Shown piece after piece: positions 28,000-38,141 of a stretch of DNA of 64,000 nucleotides. The stretch comes from Macrophomina tecta. Taxonomy: Eukaryota > Ascomycota > Dothideomycetes > Botryosphaeriales > Botryosphaeriaceae. Both the position numbers and the translations under genes were made by a program. A model generated the notes under the pieces. That model was given only the letters and a program-made list of their open reading frames with translations, was not told the DNA's origin and ran no database searches. Where the stretch lies: the NCBI GenBank assembly GCA_024180945.1, contig JAKSGN010000020.1, positions 124,001-188,000 of the forward strand, read 5' to 3'. Numbering within the stretch: position 1 is the first letter of the stretch; each line of letters begins with the position of its first letter.

Positions 28000-28456
28000 C
28001 GCCGACAGCCCAGCTACCGTCATCCAATACCGAACTCACCATAGCCTCCTCCGGGAATACCCCTTCCAACTAGGCTTCGTGCTTGGGCAATAGAGGTGGC
28101 GAGCAACATAACTGTTACTGGCTATATCCTCTGGGTGGAAGATCTCAGCACAGTGACCTACAAGCAAACAACTCTCAGTGTCACGAACTGAACCTACGAC
28201 GGGTAGATTGGCTGGGAACTAGGCGAGTGGATGGGTAGGCAGGACGTAGCTGACTCGGCAGACCGAGTGGTAGAAGGCGGTCACATGACAACCCTACATT
28301 GCCCTTCCTTACTATTTAAACCATCCTCCCTTCACCCTCCCTCCAAACCGTTTCCTCTCCTTCCTCAGCTTAGAAACTTCGTCAAATCATACCCACTTTG
28401 AATTCAACTCAGTGCAGGTCGTGACACTCAGTATAGAGCAGGATGTTGAGTAGCTA
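28000..28456 (+). pseudogene. Coding-like remnant interrupted by the solo LTR
   Basis: Before the LTR, a frame reads VASNITVTGYILWVEDLSTV then TYKQTTLS. If the 248-bp LTR and one copy of its 5-bp duplication are removed, the frame continues SIEQDVE and stops at about 28454. Further upstream, coding-like sequence (GADSPATVIQYRTHHSLL) lies in another frame, with a break near 28088. The LTR therefore probably landed in a protein-coding tail. The parent protein is not recognised. Confidence 0.45.
28179..28426. mobile_element. Solo LTR of a retrotransposon, 248 bp, with 5-bp target-site duplication
   Basis: The element starts TGTCACGA and ends with the exact inverted repeat TCGTGACA, giving the canonical TG...CA ends. 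It is flanked by CTCAG at 28174-28178 and CTCAG at 28427-28431, a perfect 5-bp target-site duplication as made by retroviral-type integrases. Inside are a TATTTAAA-type box (about 28311-28319) and a C/T-rich stretch after it, as expected for an LTR promoter. There is no internal retroelement sequence, so it is a solo LTR left by LTR-LTR recombination. The intact ends and duplication suggest a fairly recent insertion. Confidence 0.85.
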
Positions 28457-28666
28457 CTGCGTCTGATTGGTGTGCGGCAGCATTGAACAGGCCGCTAACA
28501 GCCGGAACAATTGTAAGACCGACGCATTTAGGCAGCAGGCAACAGAGTTACCCCGCATTTGCAAAGAGAGCTGAGAAGCATCCTTCTACTTTAATATAGG
28601 TTATGCCCAGACACAAGCTGCAAAGATAAGAGTTCTCCTCTTTTTCTTCTCTTCGTGCGTGAAGAC
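28432..28666 (+). promoter_or_regulatory. Probable promoter and leader of the microexon HET gene
   Basis: This is 235 bp between the LTR target duplication and the ATG at 28667. A TTTAATATAGG motif lies at about 28592 and a C/T-rich leader follows (28630-28655). The context around the ATG (GAAGACATGG) is good. Confidence 0.4.
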
Positions 28667-31600
28667 ATGGGGTCTCGCTGGAAGTTTACGGTACGTCTCA
28701 GCTCTTACCAAACATAATCTGACCATAGCTGACAGTAGGAACAGAAAGTAGGTGTTTTCTACGGCATTACTAACATCACACTAACAAAATCGGTTCAAGG
28801 AAGTAAGTAGGCCTGCGAACACTAATACGCGAGGCTGCCACTAATGCTAGCATATCTACTGGTGTAGTGGGTAAGTATACTTGCGAACACTGCCATGCTA
28901 GGCTACTACTAATATGTCTGGTGGCGTAGGACGTAAGTTGACCTGCGAATATTAATATACGAGGCTACTACTAATACTAGTAAATTTAATGGCGTAGGGC
29001 GTAAGTAGACCTATAAACATTAACATACGAGGCTGCTAAAAAATACTAATATACCTAATGGCGTAGAGCGTAAGTAGACCTGCGAACTCTAATATTCGAG
29101 GCTACTACTAATGCTGGTATATCTTATGATATAGGACGTAAGTAGACCTGCGAAAACTAATATATAAGGCTACTACTAATATTAGTATATCTACTGGTAT
29201 AGAATGTAAGTATACTTACGAATTCTAATATATAAGGCGGCTACTAATACTAGTACATCTGGTGGCGTAGCGCGTAAGCAGATCTATAAAGCCTAATATA
29301 TAAGACTACTGTTAATGCTTATATATTTGGTGGCGTAGGACGTAAGCAGACCTATAAACCCTAATATACTAGGCTACTACTAATACTAGTGTATCTGGTG
29401 GTATAGATTGTAAGTAGACTTCTAAAACTAATATACGAGGTTACTACTAATGCTAGTGTATCTACTTATATAGCGTGTAAGTAGATCTACAAATACTAAT
29501 ATGCGAGGCTACTACTAATAATAGTTTATCTGGTGGCGTAGGTTGTAAGTAGACCTATAAATACTAATACGCGAGGCTACTACTAATATTAGTACGTTTA
29601 TTATTATAGCTTGTAAGTAGATCTACGAACTCTAATATATAAGGCTACTACTAATGCTAGTATATCTGGTGGCTTAGGACGTAAGTAAACCTATAAAATC
29701 TAGTATGCGAGCCTATTATTAATACTAGTATATCTGGTGGTGTAGGACGTGAGTAGATCTATAAATCCTAATATATTAGGCTATTACTAATACTAGTGTA
29801 TCTGGTGGTATAGCGTGTAAGTAGGCCTATAAATACTAATATACGAGGCTGCTACTAATACTAGTATATCTGGCAATATAGGAGGTAAGTAGACCTATAA
29901 AAAACTAGTAAACGAGGCGACTACTAAAACTAGTATATTAATATATATAGTACGTAAGTAGACCTGTGAATACTTATATACGAAGCGGCTACTAATTCTA
30001 GTATATCTACTGGTGTAGTGGGTAAGTAGATCTACGAATACTATACTAATACTAATACTAATGTGTCTGGTGGCGTAGGACGTAAGTAGCCCTATAAACC
30101 TAAATACGCTAGGCTACTACTAATACTATTATATTTAATGGTATAGAGTGTAAGTAGACTTACGAACTTTAATATACGAGGCTACTAATACTAGTGTATC
30201 TGCTGGTATAGTTGGTAAGTAGGCCTATAAACCCTAATACGCTAGTCTGCTGCTAATACTGGTGTCTGGTGGAGTAGATTGTAAGTAAACCTACGAACCT
30301 TAATATACGAGGCTGCTAATACTAGTATACCTGTTGGTATAGTTGGTAAGTAGACCTATAAACCCTAATACGCTAGGCTGCTGCTAATACTGGTCTCTGG
30401 TGGTGTAGACTGTAAGTAGACTTGCGAAAACTAACATGCGAGGCTGCTGCTAATACTGGTGTTTCTGATGGCGTAGGGCGTAAGTAGACCTGCGTACACT
30501 ACTACGCTATGCTACTAATGCTAGTGTCGGCTGGTGTAGGAGGCAAGTAGACCTGAGAACACTAGCATGTGAGACTGCTGTTAATGCTGGTGTGTCTGCT
30601 GGTGCAGCTTGTGAGTAGGCCTGTGAACACTGATATGCGAGGCTGCTGCTAATACTACTATGTCTCGTGGTATAGAGGGTAAGCGAACTACGGATTGCGT
30701 CTACATGTGACCGCTGCAACCGATGACAATTGGAAGTGGTACAACGGCTGGCATCTCTGTTTCAATGACGCCTTTGCAAGAAACCTCTATGTTGATTTCC
30801 CATCGCATGCGCTACCTGCCACGGTCCACTGTTGCCCCTGCTGCAGCGCCATCGTAGACGATGCTGTTACAGCTGCTACTTACAATACCAGCCTTTCCGA
30901 TATACGTACTTCTGCGGAAAGCTGTTTGGTCTGCAAAATGCTTCTCCGAGCATTTGGGCGCTGCTGCAATGATGATGACGGAAATATCGACATAGTGCGA
31001 GAAGGCGCATCACTAAAAAGAGGACCACGGGGCCCACGTCTTCTGCGGTTTTGTGCAGATCCAGGTCAGTGTCCTCAGCCTCACTTATACACCGGACAGA
31101 AACGGTACTTATAACATATCCTTACCACAGAATACGTGGATCGTACTGACTACGGCATCCCGATTGGCCTTCCAATTCCACCTGAACCTGACGATCCTGC
31201 ACGATTTGCACTGCTTCGCGCATGGCTCTCCTGGTGTGACGGTTCCCACGGTTGCAACAAGCACGGAGGTGAATCCAAGACAGCATTGCCGACGAGAGTC
31301 CTCTACGTTGGTGACCCAAAGGGCTCAGGTTACGATCTGGACTCTGTGCGTCTAGTTTGCGCTTCGGAAACAAGCAGTCATAAATACATCGCATTATCTC
31401 ACTGCTGGGGCAAGCTCTCGGATGAAGAGAAGAAAGGGTTCTGTACAACGCGAGCTAACATTGGCCAACGGCTGAGAGGATTCAGTCTCTCTGAACTACC
31501 AAAGACTTTCCGGGATGCTGTCAAAGTGACTCGAGAACTTGGCATCCTGTACCTCTGGATCGACTCACTCTGTATAATCCAGTACGGGGACAATGGCGAG

Positions 31601-32703
31601 GACTGGAAAAGCGAATCTGGCCGAATGGAAACCGTCTTTTCGGCGGCTTATTGCACAATCGCTGCAGCTTCGGCTGACAACTCCAACGCAGGGTTCCTGG
31701 AGCGGGGCGTAAGCACTGGCTATGTCTCTGTTCAAGGTGCCTCAGGGAAGCGATTCTATATCAGCGACGATATAGATGATTTCGACAATGACGTGGGAAA
31801 GGCTCTGCTCAGCACAAGAGCATGGGTTATGCAAGAAAGGGTTTTGGCACAGCGGACTATTCACTTCACTGCCAATCAGACCTATTGGGAATGTGGCGAA
31901 GGGATCTACTGCGAAAACCTTACTAGGCTGGAAAGGTAAGATCCCTACAACGCCTAAACCCAACATATTCTTGACTAAAGATCGTTTTGCGCAGCTCATC
32001 CGAGAAAACGTACTTTACGCTTGATCCAAACTTCCCGAGCCGGCTCCTTAAATCGGGCAGGCAACGTACCATCGACTTCATTCAATATCTCTCCGAGAAT
32101 TACTCGAAGATGGAACTTACATTCGAGACCGACAGATGCGTTGCTATATCTGGGCTAGAAAACCTTATTGCAAGTGCTTTAAGTTGTCAAAGCAGATACG
32201 GCATCTTCCAGCGGTACATTCACAGGGGCCTGCTATGGCAGGCGTCTGACAACAAGACGGAGCGGATTGCGTACAACAACCGGCATGTGCCATCGTGGTC
32301 ATGGATGGCATATAGTGGAGGCATTCAGTTCATAAACATCCCTTTTGGCAGCGTCGACTGGATCAATTACCTCCGATTCGATGAGGAGCGCGACTATGCA
32401 ATAATAGCCGACGTAGCAGCATTTACAAATTGTACAATGGAACTACATGGGAAACAGTATACGGTCTCGGATTCCAGTGGAACGGAGAGAGGGTGGATAC
32501 GGTATGATGTTGAGGATGGTGAAGAACTTTGTCAAGAACGATGTGTTGTCGTAGGAATGGTGAGAAACGGCAGATTTAAGGACTGCTGCTACATAATGAT
32601 TGTCAGGCCGACTGGGGTGGATGGTGAGTATGGGAGGGTTGGAGTGGGGTTAATTCATAGTGGCCGCGTAGTGAGATGGAAAATTAACGTGCGAGTCGTA
32701 TAA
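28667..32703 (+). CDS. HET-domain protein whose N-terminus is encoded by an array of 3-nt microexons
   Basis: The predicted gene has 34 exons and encodes 653 residues. Exon 1 is 28667-28690 (MGSRWKFT), exon 2 is 28739-28747 (EQK), exons 3-31 are 29 microexons of 3 nt each (positions in the three array entries), exon 32 is 30737-31064, exon 33 is 31131-31935, exon 34 is 31995-32703. Every exon before 32 is a multiple of three, so all junctions are phase 0 until intron 32 (phase 1) and intron 33 (phase 2). Exons 32-34 encode a clear HET domain (PF06985): a CCPCCSAIV/CLVCKMLL cysteine region, YIALSHCWG at about 235-243, ILYLWIDSLCIIQ at about 287-299, AAYCTIAAASADNSNAGF, and a C-terminal RHVPSWSWMAYSGG block. 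HET proteins trigger cell death after non-self recognition. If the array is not spliced as modelled, exon 32 has no usable start codon nearby. The HET part is certain; the splicing model is inferred. Confidence 0.72.
28800..29409 (+). repeat. Microexon array, part 1 (microexons 3-12)
   Basis: Three-base exons lie at 28800 (GAA), 28868 (TGG), 28930 (GAC), 28998 (GGC), 29067 (AGC), 29135 (GAC), 29203 (AAT), 29271 (CGC), 29339 (GAC) and 29407 (ATT), giving E W D G S D N R D I. Each is preceded by AG (AAG once, TAG nine times) and followed by GTAAGT (eight times) or GTAAGC (twice). The introns between are 59-66 nt, mostly 65, so the period is 68 bp. A branch-like CTAAT (GTTAAT in one unit) lies about 20-30 nt before each acceptor. 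The unit typically starts GTAAGTAGACCTGCGAAC and its middle is GAGGCTACTACTAATACTAG. Confidence 0.75.
29474..30081 (+). repeat. Microexon array, part 2 (microexons 13-22)
   Basis: Three-base exons lie at 29474 (CGT), 29542 (GTT), 29610 (CTT), 29678 (GAC), 29746 (GAC), 29814 (CGT), 29882 (GAG), 29951 (TAC), 30019 (TGG) and 30079 (GAC), giving R V L D D R E Y W D. All acceptors are TAG. Donors are GTAAGT except GTGAGT at 29749. Introns are 57-66 nt. The intron before 29951 has the most altered branch (ACTAAA), and the one before 30079 is shortened and holds a run of three ACTAAT motifs. Confidence 0.75.
30147..30678 (+). repeat. Microexon array, part 3 (microexons 23-31)
   Basis: Three-base exons lie at 30147 (AGT), 30212 (TTG), 30278 (ATT), 30343 (TTG), 30409 (ACT), 30477 (GGC), 30540 (GAG), 30608 (CTT) and 30676 (AGG), giving S L I L T G E L R. 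Acceptors are TAG except CAG before 30608. Donors are GTAAGT, with one GCAAGT (30543), one GTGAGT (30611) and one GTAAGC (30679), all accepted donor variants. Introns are 60-65 nt and GC-richer than in part 1, with GCTGCTAAT branch regions, so the array is graded along its length. The last intron (30679-30736, AAG acceptor) joins the array to the HET exons in frame. Confidence 0.75.
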
Positions 32704-35168: not shown

Positions 35169-37175
35169 CTACTGCAGACGCACGCCGGCCTGTCTGTTCT
35201 TCTTCGCTGTTCCCTCCATCGCCGTGTTCATCGCGGTATGTTGGCTGGAGTCCAAGCTGCTCATGGCCTCCCTCTTCTTCTCTTCTTCAATCTTCTTGAG
35301 ACGCTTCTCAGTCTTCTGCTTGCCAGAGCCCTTGCCATGAAACTGGTGGCTGAGATGCTTGAAGGCCTCCTTTTGGTTCATGCGGCGGCCGAACTCGTCA
35401 ATGTAGTTGAGCTCAACGTTAGGCTTGTATTCCTTATTGAAGATTTCAGCCATCTTGCGTGACTCAAGGCGGTCGCGTTCCTGATTGGCCTTTTGGGCCA
35501 TTGCCTCACGCTCGCGCGCAGACATGTGCTCGAGACGGCCGGAACGACGGTCGCGCTCGCGCTGCAACTTGGCGCGCATTTCAGCCTCAGCCTCCATCTT
35601 CTGCTTCTCAGCCAGGAAACGCTGGTGCTCAATGTGCCTTTTGTTGAGCTCGGCACCGTTCTGATCTCCAATTTGGCCACGCTGCCTAAGGAGGTTGAGG
35701 GTAGCTGCAACACCACGGTCGATGGTTTCCTCCTCGTCAAGCCCGGTAGTCGTGACTGCTGGAATCGATGTACTGCGTCCTTCCCGTTCTTCACGAGCTT
35801 TCCGTTCCTCAGCTTCCCCGGCCTCGGCGTATGACTGTTCCATGTTGACATCACCCTCGTCATCTACTGCGTTGGCAGCCTCCGAGACTGCACGGCTGCG
35901 AGGTTGGGAGGACTTGGCCCGCTGACGCTCCGGCCGCTCCGCAGGTCCCTGCAAATTGGCCACAAACTCGGTAGTCTCGTCGATGACAAGGCCTGGTTCC
36001 TCCTCGTCCTCGACAGTGTTCATGATGTCGGGAGTCGCAGATGCCTCCTCCCGAAGCTGTCTTGCAAGGTCTTCAGGCTTAACCTTCTTCCTCTTTTTGA
36101 GGGCGGCTCTTCTTTGCATGGCCAGGTTTGCCTGCAAATCCTCGTCATCGATTACGTCCTCCACAATTCTCTTCTTCGGGGCCGCTTGCGGCTGGTCAAT
36201 TTCCATACCACCGTTATCTTGTAGAACAGCAGGGTCAGGTGTGGGGAGGATATCGTCATCGTCGACAGCCTTCTTCCTCGACTTCTTTTCCTTCTTCTTC
36301 TTGGGCTTCTTGATCTTGACTTCTGAGGGGTCGACGTAGTCTGAAATCGGGGTGTCCTCCTGCAGGAAGTCGAGGCTAATCTTGACCTTTGATTTTCCAA
36401 GGGTGCCGTCCTTGCTGATCTTCTGTGTTTCCTCGACCGTTCTTCCCTGACCGTCGAGGGTAAAAACCTTGCGCTTCTTTCCGTCGATCTCTTCATCGTA
36501 TTGGGCGAGGATGGATTTCTGGCCAGATTCGTCCATATCGTTGGGGTCGTATGCGCGCTTCCTCTTCTTTGACTCCAGACGTTCGTTCAACCTCTCACGT
36601 TCCGCCAGTCCAACATCTTCCAGCTCATCTCCAGCCTCGTCATCATCGACCGCGGCATCCTTGAGCGTGAGAATGTGCTCTTCGCCCTCGCCAAGCTGAT
36701 CGAACTCATGAGCGACCTTCACGCCAGCCAAGTCCTTAGCAGTGTACTCCTGCTGTAGCGCGGCCTCGCGCTCAGCAAGCTCCTGTTCCAGACGCCTGGC
36801 CTTTTCAATTTTCTTCTGACGCTTCTTTTGTCCCGCCAACCAAGTCCTCGCATCAACATCTTCGCCCTCACCCAAGCCCTGACCCTCAAGTTTGGCAAAC
36901 CGCTGCGCCTGTTCGCGGGCCTTTTTGATGGCGTCCTTCTTGGCCTGGAGCTTCGCCTTCGCCGCTCTCTCCTCCTCCATCTTGTGCCAATTATCGTAGG
37001 CAGCGGCGGAGCGAGATTCAAGAGTGCTGGCGGGTTCTTCGTCTGAGTTGTCCCCATCGCCACTGGGTTCCTTGAAGACGGGGCCAGCGTCGTTCTCTTT
37101 TCCGGGGACTGGAAGGGGCTTCATGCCCATGGCCACCCGGATCTTGTTGGCCTCCTCGATCGAGATGGCATCCAT
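35169..37175 (-). CDS. SNU66: U4/U6.U5 tri-snRNP protein Snu66/SART1
   Basis: Intronless, 668 residues from the ATG at 37175. The family is a component of the spliceosomal tri-snRNP in the nucleus. The N-terminus starts MDAISIEEANKIRVAMGMKP, the SART1 opening. Highly charged helices follow (AREQAQRFAKLEGQGLGEGE, TWLAGQKKRQKKIEKARRLE), then YTAKDLAGVKVAHEFDQLGE, a SART1 signature. Basic Lys-rich stretches (KIKKPKKKKEKKSRKKA) look like nuclear signals. The conserved C-terminus contains RGVAATLNLLRQRG, ELNYIDEFGRRMNQKEAFKH and LSHQFHGKGSGKQKTEKR. The assignment is secure. Confidence 0.95.
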   Translation of the reverse strand: MDAISIEEANKIRVAMGMKPLPVPGKENDAGPVFKEPSGDGDNSDEEPASTLESRSAAAYDNWHKMEEERAAKAKLQAKKDAIKKAREQAQRFAKLEGQGLGEGEDVDARTWLAGQKKRQKKIEKARRLEQELAEREAALQQEYTAKDLAGVKVAHEFDQLGEGEEHILTLKDAAVDDDEAGDELEDVGLAERERLNERLESKKRKRAYDPNDMDESGQKSILAQYDEEIDGKKRKVFTLDGQGRTVEETQKISKDGTLGKSKVKISLDFLQEDTPISDYVDPSEVKIKKPKKKKEKKSRKKAVDDDDILPTPDPAVLQDNGGMEIDQPQAAPKKRIVEDVIDDEDLQANLAMQRRAALKKRKKVKPEDLARQLREEASATPDIMNTVEDEEEPGLVIDETTEFVANLQGPAERPERQRAKSSQPRSRAVSEAANAVDDEGDVNMEQSYAEAGEAEERKAREEREGRSTSIPAVTTTGLDEEETIDRGVAATLNLLRQRGQIGDQNGAELNKRHIEHQRFLAEKQKMEAEAEMRAKLQRERDRRSGRLEHMSAREREAMAQKANQERDRLESRKMAEIFNKEYKPNVELNYIDEFGRRMNQKEAFKHLSHQFHGKGSGKQKTEKRLKKIEEEKKREAMSSLDSSQHTAMNTAMEGTAKKNRQAGVRLQ

Positions 37176-38141
37176 CTTGGTGGTATTACTGTTGCGGTTT
37201 GTTGGATGGAGATGATGCCGTACAGTGCGACGGAGGATGGAGCGTGTCGTTGGTTACGCGCGGAGTCGCGACGTGCGGTCGGTGACGGCGGCGATGGAAC
37301 TTATCCTGGCTTGAGCCGCTTTCACCGCCCGCCTCCATCGGGTTAGCAGCCAGCGCACGGACTTTGAGCTTCATACAAAATTCTCAGCGCGAAAGCAACT
37401 TTCTTCCTCACCAAACACAAACCTGTGTCCAGCGCTCCCGGACGCCTCACGGTATGAATCGCCTCCATTTTTGCCTATTAATCTCAGCTAACAGTCTCGC
37501 AGGTGTTTCCGGTCGAGTGCTGTGACAGTTCGGCCGGCTATGCACAGGGGAGACAACACGCTTCGGCGTACGTGCCTCTGTGCGGCCGACAGGTATTTCA
37601 GATCCACAGCGGGTCGTCCAGAACGGTTCCTTGGGCTCTGCTCAGGTTGAGCCGGGATGGCGGCTTTGCGGCGCGCCACATTCCTAGTTTCCACAGAATT
37701 ACTCCATTGGAGGCTGAAGATAGGAGACACAACCGTGGCAGCGTACATACATTTTAGATAGTGTTTGGTTTACGTGAAGATGCAAGATGTCCTGCAAGAA
37801 CTGCAATTGTTCTTGCGGGCGTTCTCCGCGAGTATTTCGGCGCTTCGCTCAGAATCAATCTGCTCTGCTGCGCCAACCTCGCGGCCTTGCATTTGATGAG
37901 CTCTTGCTCCATGTGTTCTGGGCTTTGGTATCACCAATGTATTGGTACCGGCCCCGACAAGCCGAAGAAAGGTTGTGCAGCGGCATTGCAGCCTCTGCTC
38001 AATGTTAAGCAGGCGCAGATGCTTTTCAGAGGCGTAGATTCAGATCTAGCATCTCCACCTGTGTCAAATGCAATCCATAATTTTACAATGCTCATCCGTT
38101 GAACCCATGATATCGACAATTCCCACACTCTGCTTTCCCTT
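37176..38141. other. Intergenic: SNU66 promoter and bL28m 3' flank
   Basis: 966 bp with no supported gene. Short frames on both strands are domain-free. Confidence 0.45.

Follow-up and report, generated by a model that had tools for sequence, protein, structure and literature searches.

Codon-sized microexons in fungal genes are already known from the truffle. The NACHT-ANK (nank) genes of Tuber melanosporum contain dozens of 3-bp exons and undergo alternative splicing (Iotti et al. 2012, as cited in PMC4986451, PMC3689799, PMC10197012 and PMC9815663), and the citing papers present this alternative splicing as a means to diversify the recognition region. Still smaller exons are reported to be spliced accurately; 1-nt exons are found in Arabidopsis APC11 (PMC4674806) and, with a fungal spliceosome, in Fusarium CYP621A (PMC12940212), so that splicing of single codons is feasible. 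HET domains have a role in incompatibility, although only few of the HET genes are reported to act in it (5 of 125 in Podospora; PMC10197012). A close parallel to the codons described below is found in the hypervariable positions reported within conserved repeats of fungal NLR proteins (PMC4986451).

The window analyzed here is a 64,000-nucleotide stretch of the Macrophomina tecta genome, in which a HET-domain gene is preceded by a row of short related introns. The initial annotation stated that no fungal gene of such build had been described; in view of the truffle genes, this can hold at most for HET genes. Among the titles and abstract openings covered, there was no report of such arrays in HET-only genes or in Dothideomycetes. 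What is apparently new is that Dothideomycete HET genes use this architecture, in the form of tandem intron arrays that hold hypervariable codons and precede the HET domain. The predicted features are given below in window positions; single-codon exons inside the array are listed by their first base.

28667..28690, plus strand: exon 1, MGSRWKFT, with start codon ATG and GTACGT donor
28691..28738, plus strand: intron 1, 48 nt, GTACGT ... CTGAC ... TAG
28739..28747, plus strand: exon 2, 9 nt, EQK, in a frame matching exon 1 and the array codons
28748..28799, plus strand: intron 2, 52 nt, with TACTAAC branch-like site and AAG acceptor; not an array unit
28800..28802, plus strand: single-codon exon 1, GAA
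28803..30675, plus strand: intron array, 28 related introns and 27 internal single-codon exons
28868 TGG, 28930 GAC, 28998 GGC, 29067 AGC, 29135 GAC, 29203 AAT, 29271 CGC, plus strand: single-codon exons
29339 GAC, 29407 ATT, 29474 CGT, 29542 GTT, 29610 CTT, 29678 GAC, 29746 GAC, plus strand: single-codon exons
29814 CGT, 29882 GAG, 29951 TAC, 30019 TGG, 30079 GAC, 30147 AGT, 30212 TTG, plus strand: single-codon exons
30278 ATT, 30343 TTG, 30409 ACT, 30477 GGC, 30540 GAG, 30608 CTT, plus strand: single-codon exons
30676..30678, plus strand: single-codon exon 29, AGG
30679..30736, plus strand: last intron, 58 nt; its donor is GTAAGC, its acceptor AAG, and a good branch site was not seen; the unit model does not match it and it is not an array unit
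30737..31064, plus strand: exon WYNGWHLCFNDAFA...CCPCC..., encoding the N-terminal module of the HET protein; its homology to P0003, P0004 and others extends as far as the WYN residues
31131..31935, plus strand: exon with the HET domain (PF06985, E 6.6e-28)
31995..32703, plus strand: last exon, C-terminal part of the HET protein, in which frame and homology continue

The 28 intron-like units span 28803-30675 of the plus strand and are 57-66 nt long, 18 of them exactly 65 nt; Tandem Repeats Finder assigns the array a period of 68 bp with 72% matches. GTAAGT is the donor in 23 of the 28, GTAAGC in two, GTGAGT in two and GCAAGT in one, and the acceptor is TAG in 27 and CAG in one. Each unit had been annotated as an intron with donor, branch site and acceptor. 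This holds for the splice sites, since all 28 units have a GT or GC donor and an AG acceptor, but a CTRAY branch-like site (12-45 nt from the acceptor) is found in only 25 of them. At all 27 internal junctions exactly 3 bases separate the acceptor from the next donor, and together with GAA (28800-28802) and AGG (30676-30678) at the array ends there are 29 codons, with no stop among them. The claimed row of 29 three-base exons amid related introns is thus present, with the 3-nt gap at every junction. The introns of 52 and 58 nt that flank it are likewise there, although both have AAG acceptors and do not belong to the array. Splicing exon 1, exon 2, the 29 codons and the HET exons in silico gives 1962 nt and 653 residues with one terminal stop, which reproduces the single frame of phase-0 exons proposed earlier; the unspliced frame, as also proposed, runs into a TAA stop in the branch site of the first unit. 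GC content is 33-40% in the array (28800-30399) compared to about 46-52% in the adjoining bins.

The gene encodes a HET-domain protein: the PF06985 profile scores 98.3 bits against a cut-off of 22.5 and is matched over positions 1-146 of 146, and the HET exons are open across 613 codons. There is no in-frame ATG in the exon at 30737-31064 ahead of the methionine of KMLLRA, so a start codon must be spliced on from upstream. No acceptor other than that at 30736 was found to lead into the HET frame in phase 0 with no stop following. About 2.5 kb downstream, at 35172-37253 on the minus strand, lies a gene of the SART-1 family (PF03343), which we take to be a tri-snRNP splicing protein; this proximity is probably coincidence.

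Homologs were compared using the best 120 of 2073 matches, among which the full-length protein of the window gene does not appear. P0001, a record of 546 aa from M. phaseolina, is 99% identical over 89% of the query and starts at the internal Met of KMLLRA; by eye, about 8 of its 546 residues differ from window 30935-32703, possibly as allelic diversity. Exon 1, MGSRWKFT, resembles by eye the N-termini of P0002 (MENKWSFT), P0011 (MGAEKWKDS) and P0014 (MDQETWKDS). In P0002, a Phaeosphaeriaceae homolog (PMI808) with 70% identity, the predicted N-terminus abounds in peptides like EAAANASVLGGV. When P0002 was used in a translated search of the array, with the low-complexity filter and composition correction off, there were 14 plus-strand matches and no minus-strand match (best E 1.7e-4). 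At window 30393-30458 a stretch of P0002, VLGGIGGKLTCEYWDARLLLIL, aligns gapless over a TAG-NNN-GTAAG junction (E 0.002); this suggests that the P0002 gene has the 3-nt spacing too. As the HET identity, exon 1 and the position of the array all agree, the arrays of the two genes likely have a shared origin, by descent or transfer. The array matches of P0043 (E 0.19) and P0014 (E 0.71) are weak and do not stand out from chance level: elsewhere in the window, all 120 proteins together gave 62 matches at E up to 1. In five Pleosporales HET proteins (P0002, P0014, P0024, P0043 and P0067), peptides of the AAAN..GGV type look by eye like translated array introns. These may reflect misannotation, and perhaps arrays in more genes, the match being significant for P0002 only. 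P0002 residues 9-290, used as a query for translated arrays in further proteins, retrieved only P0002 itself, and P0003 residues 1-90 retrieved only P0003 and P0002; no relatives were found in viral and prokaryote contigs. Compared with shuffles, the 29-residue array peptide showed no convincing similarity to the first 300 residues of the 120 homologs: its best z scores, 2.9 for P0002 (within its translated array) and 2.5 for P0014, come from short matches that are probably chance. The Logan-derived P0008 carries VQDRDRVVRYEER directly ahead of YNNW, with a make-up that by eye resembles array peptides; it may come from a transcript, since its 619 residues fit a 2106-base contig.

An alignment of the 28 codon-plus-intron units, from which a false junction at 29701 was left out, shows how differently the two parts of the unit vary. 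Mean pairwise identity is 0.751 for the introns and 0.289 for the codons, the latter near the 0.315 expected from column composition alone. Of the four most variable columns in the alignment, three are codon columns, and transversions make up 25 of 84 cells in the codons compared to 77 of 1790 in the introns; non-codon columns 21, 22, 32 and 61 are also very variable, so that variability is not codon-confined. Codon likeness stays flat as intron likeness rises up to 85% identity, and reaches 0.48 in the nine pairs above this level. Of the 24 intron columns with a G or C majority, just three are unchanged, namely G1 and G5 of the donor and the G of the acceptor. No cell is changed out of 84 in these three columns, against 139 of 580 in the other 21, and for a G preceded by A only, as are G5 and the acceptor G, the counts are 0 of 56 against 12 of 83; Fisher p-values on such counts overstate the difference and are indicative only, because alignment cells share ancestry and are not independent. 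Most intron changes are C-to-T and G-to-A, as RIP-like mutation would give, and conserved A and T columns for this reason carry little information. The two intron halves share no tree signal (Mantel r 0.03), which rules out a tree-based selection test; the divergence of the introns is star-like. Block duplications are visible in the array, for example of units 21-22 and 23-24. The third bases of the 29 codons are 11 C, 10 T, 7 G and 1 A, the A occurring only in GAA.

The rest of the genome was searched for similar genes with the junction pattern [ACT]AG-NNN-GT[AG]NG[CT], chained at 40-150 nt spacing. There were 125 HET matches; with the window's own match and two second fragments (C6:262199 and C5:3801717) set aside, 122 of the 124 others remained. 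In the chain test with different spacers and shuffles, 30 of these loci were represented by their first 1500 bases and 92 by the stretch from 2000 to 400 bases upstream of the match; for the 30 loci, the 3-nt pattern was also run over the whole locus. Chains with 3-nt spacers were found in three of the 122 upstream stretches, all on the sense strand: six junctions in L032, five in L059 and four in L061. In the remaining HET loci the chain is at most one on either strand, and in the window, once 28601-31000 is excluded, not even two such junctions form a chain on either strand. Among Markov-1 shuffles of the upstream stretches, 13 of 4880 reach a chain of two and none a longer one. With the other 15 spacer lengths between 0 and 15 nt, the longest chain in the 122 stretches is three, seen once, at spacer 6. 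This chain, in L104, was taken as chance; one of its spacers, TAAAGC, contains a stop in phase 0.

L032 has six consecutive 3-nt exons, ACG ACT TAT GCG CAT GAT (449-866), amid seven introns of 50-85 nt that all contain a loosely branch-like site. The exon ahead of the chain and the exon LSDTWTFSVDNKF after it are both phase 0; there is no Pfam match in the N-terminal exon. Its introns are not repeats, having a likeness score of 0.57 compared to 0.51 when shuffled and 0.74 for seven window introns; the single-codon architecture is therefore present here without a repeat. Two points of the predicted chain are ambiguous: one exon can also be read as the 6-nt CAGCAT, and the donor after GAT has a GTAAGC competitor 4 nt further on. 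L059 and L061 are paralogs; from their last codon onward, 1346 aligned bases of these HET genes are 97.9% identical. The unit in their arrays, about 70 bp long, is a second one that shares mainly its ends (GTAAGTAG and TGGTGGYGTAG) with the window unit. L059 has eight codons, CGG AAG GGG GTC CAG GTC CGG TGG, and L061 has four, CGG TTC GAG TGG. Some L059 units are damaged, with one donor reading CTAAGT and one GTAATT, and the start-codon exon was not identified in either gene. The ten introns of the two genes have a mean identity of 0.90, against 0.36 for the codons. In the 23 pairs with no more than six intron differences, the codons differ at 42 of 69 bases and the introns at 112 of 1541; extreme pairs combine 2 of 67 intron differences with 3 of 3 in the codon, or 3 of 67 with 0 of 3. 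All 12 codons of these paralogs end in G or C, and the six of L032 in G (two) or T (four). The sequences of L059/L101 (C21) and L061/L102 (C10) part just upstream of TATACGAAATG at the array start, and the L059 and L061 copies look as if each had been joined to a new 5' region.

The exon after the array in L059 and L061 reads TSIPDERFASQFF, beginning TSIPDERFA, and the last 3-nt exon, TGG, therefore completes the motif W-x4-D-x2-FA. This is a family motif, seen in homologs such as P0027 (WTYTPDNDFA) and P0008 (WTLSFDNDFA). At the protein level, the TGG exon thus appears to be the best indication of a coding 3-nt exon, one given by a single residue. A scan for the motif in 90 of the 122 loci and part of the window found it intact in the window gene and L032, and one further match, in L040, is probably chance; such a scan passes over L059 and L061 because their W sits in a separate exon.

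We consider it probable that the window gene is a HET-domain gene in which ordinary splicing joins up to 29 one-codon exons between the start exon and the HET module, and that the result is a hypervariable stretch, most likely with a specificity or regulatory role, of an allorecognition or immune-type protein. The ordinary spliceosome would remove the small introns one by one, and the one-codon exons would be joined or skipped; either way the frame is kept, because every exon is phase 0. Shared descent and turnover of the tandem array would keep the introns alike and selection would keep their splice signals, while the hypervariable codons would place a variable segment immediately before the HET module, on its N-terminal side. 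We infer the splicing as drawn, isoforms from codon skipping and a recognition role of the peptide; a variable specificity stretch is suggested by the saturated codons together with the action of HET domains in incompatibility, and an allorecognition role of this gene by its HET domain. The spared splice Gs, the saturated codons, the three other HET genes and the family-conserved W give good indirect support to the earlier claim of an N-terminus spliced from microexons.

Alternatively, the array could be a minisatellite inside one intron of about 1.9 kb, with exon 1 or 2 joined straight to 30737 and the splice-like signals being relics of an intron that was duplicated with a 3-bp flank. Such a direct join would also be in frame, all exons being phase 0 (likewise in L032); among the homologs, P0011 (MGAEKWKDSSFQYDGWEHTFDNNFA) has hardly any sequence separating its start from the HET module, and the first residues of P0003 are MPWYNDW. 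Relics, however, should not be spared, and the splice Gs are spared in every unit as the other G/C columns change (139 of 580). L032 also retains six 3-nt exons among introns that are not repeats, the TGG exon of L059 and L061 gives a family-conserved residue, and on general grounds a 1.9-kb intron packed with good 65-nt introns would be unexpected in a filamentous fungus; we therefore judge this explanation unlikely. An origin by serial insertion of mobile, introner-like introns, which would make the codons the remains of one continuous ancestral exon, has the merit of accounting in a single step for differing codons and for introns that are alike and diverged in a star-like manner, and introner-like elements are reported from Dothideomycetes (PMC4457414). 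But the window unit occurs in one place only in the 54-Mb genome, within the reach of the search, and the second unit in two paralogous places; outside the arrays the shared end motif has 5 matches compared to 6 for the reversed control. The strict 3-nt, phase-0 spacing and the block duplications point to tandem duplication, the codon series has no sign of target-site duplication, and the joined peptide lacks convincing similarity to homologs. This origin is accordingly highly improbable.

It is more improbable still that the gene is a decaying copy, with an array mutated by RIP-like C-to-T and G-to-A changes and upstream exons that are not used. The AT-richness of the array, the mostly transitional variation of its introns and the start of the public record P0001 at an internal Met would fit such decay, yet the HET exons are open over 613 codons, with the 99% identity to P0001 over 89% of the query, and the splice Gs are spared. 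Other candidates were rejected. For a structured RNA or regulatory element, no consensus pairs were seen in the 28 units and no Rfam match at E 0.1 in 28000-31200. Reading the unit through as coding, in the manner of the EAAANASVLGGV-type peptides of P0002, meets stops in the window array. A dispersed introner family, with near-identical copies in many unrelated genes, does not agree with copies that, as far as the search reached, are confined to array loci. The units are not stwintrons either, since they are not nested: neighbouring units are separated by 3 nt, and every unit has a complete donor and acceptor of its own.

A broader extension of the reading in which one-codon exons are spliced is that a subfamily of Dothideomycete HET genes holds codon libraries in its introns. 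The intron, 75-97% alike, would be the conserved carrier and the codon its saturated payload, and array recombination together with skipping of one-codon exons could yield a very large set of N-terminal peptides per gene; this may need a targeted diversifying process beyond point mutation and selection. We regard this extension as speculative and rather doubtful. If exons are indeed joined codon by codon, such exon series are a recurring diversification route of fungal self/nonself genes and no truffle oddity, and the route reaches plain HET-domain genes, whose diversifying forces are described as an open question (PMC10197012). For the spliceosome, a long succession of introns only 3 nt apart would be a limit case as well, and the database N-termini of such genes would be wrong, with P0001 cut short and P0002 carrying a translated intron array.

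Compared with the known systems, the window gene (29 predicted exons of exactly 3 bp), L032 (6), L059 (8) and L061 (4) resemble Tuber nank in having many such exons. The nank genes encode NLR proteins (NACHT plus ankyrin) with a C-terminal recognition domain and belong to a truffle, whereas here the exons lie N-terminal to the HET module in HET genes of a Dothideomycete. A Pfam scan of the three HET-gene exons, taken singly, gives HET only, with NACHT and ankyrin domains absent. The window gene would thus work like the nank genes without belonging to their family. Set beside nank as known through the citing papers, three of the four genes here have a tandem intron array and L032 does not; the codons are saturated and the array introns 75-90% alike. 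The micro-exon genes of Schistosoma also have many small exons, mostly multiples of three, and alternative splicing (PMC10526429), but these exons are mostly 15 bp (with a range of 3-81 bp in the abstract of that source and 6-81 bp in its text), the introns reach about 5 kb, and the account in that source does not present them as an array of like units; Schistosoma is an animal parasite and its proteins are unrelated to HET genes. APC11 and CYP621A, as reported, each have one tiny conserved exon, in contrast to the hypervariable series seen here. Introner-like elements (PMC4457414) and stwintrons (PMC8469720, PMC9024468, PMC12403724) are likewise reported as short introns that are alike and multiplied in fungal genomes; they are dispersed over many genes or nested, whereas the window array is confined to its gene with a separation of one codon. 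The WD, ANK and TPR repeats of high internal conservation in fungal NLR genes (the HNWD family and others; PMC4986451) share with the array a conserved-frame tandem repeat, differences in repeat number, a few hypervariable codons and an association with incompatibility-type genes. In the NLR genes, as described in that source, the repeats themselves are translated; here the repeat is an intron, and one codon per unit is the exon.
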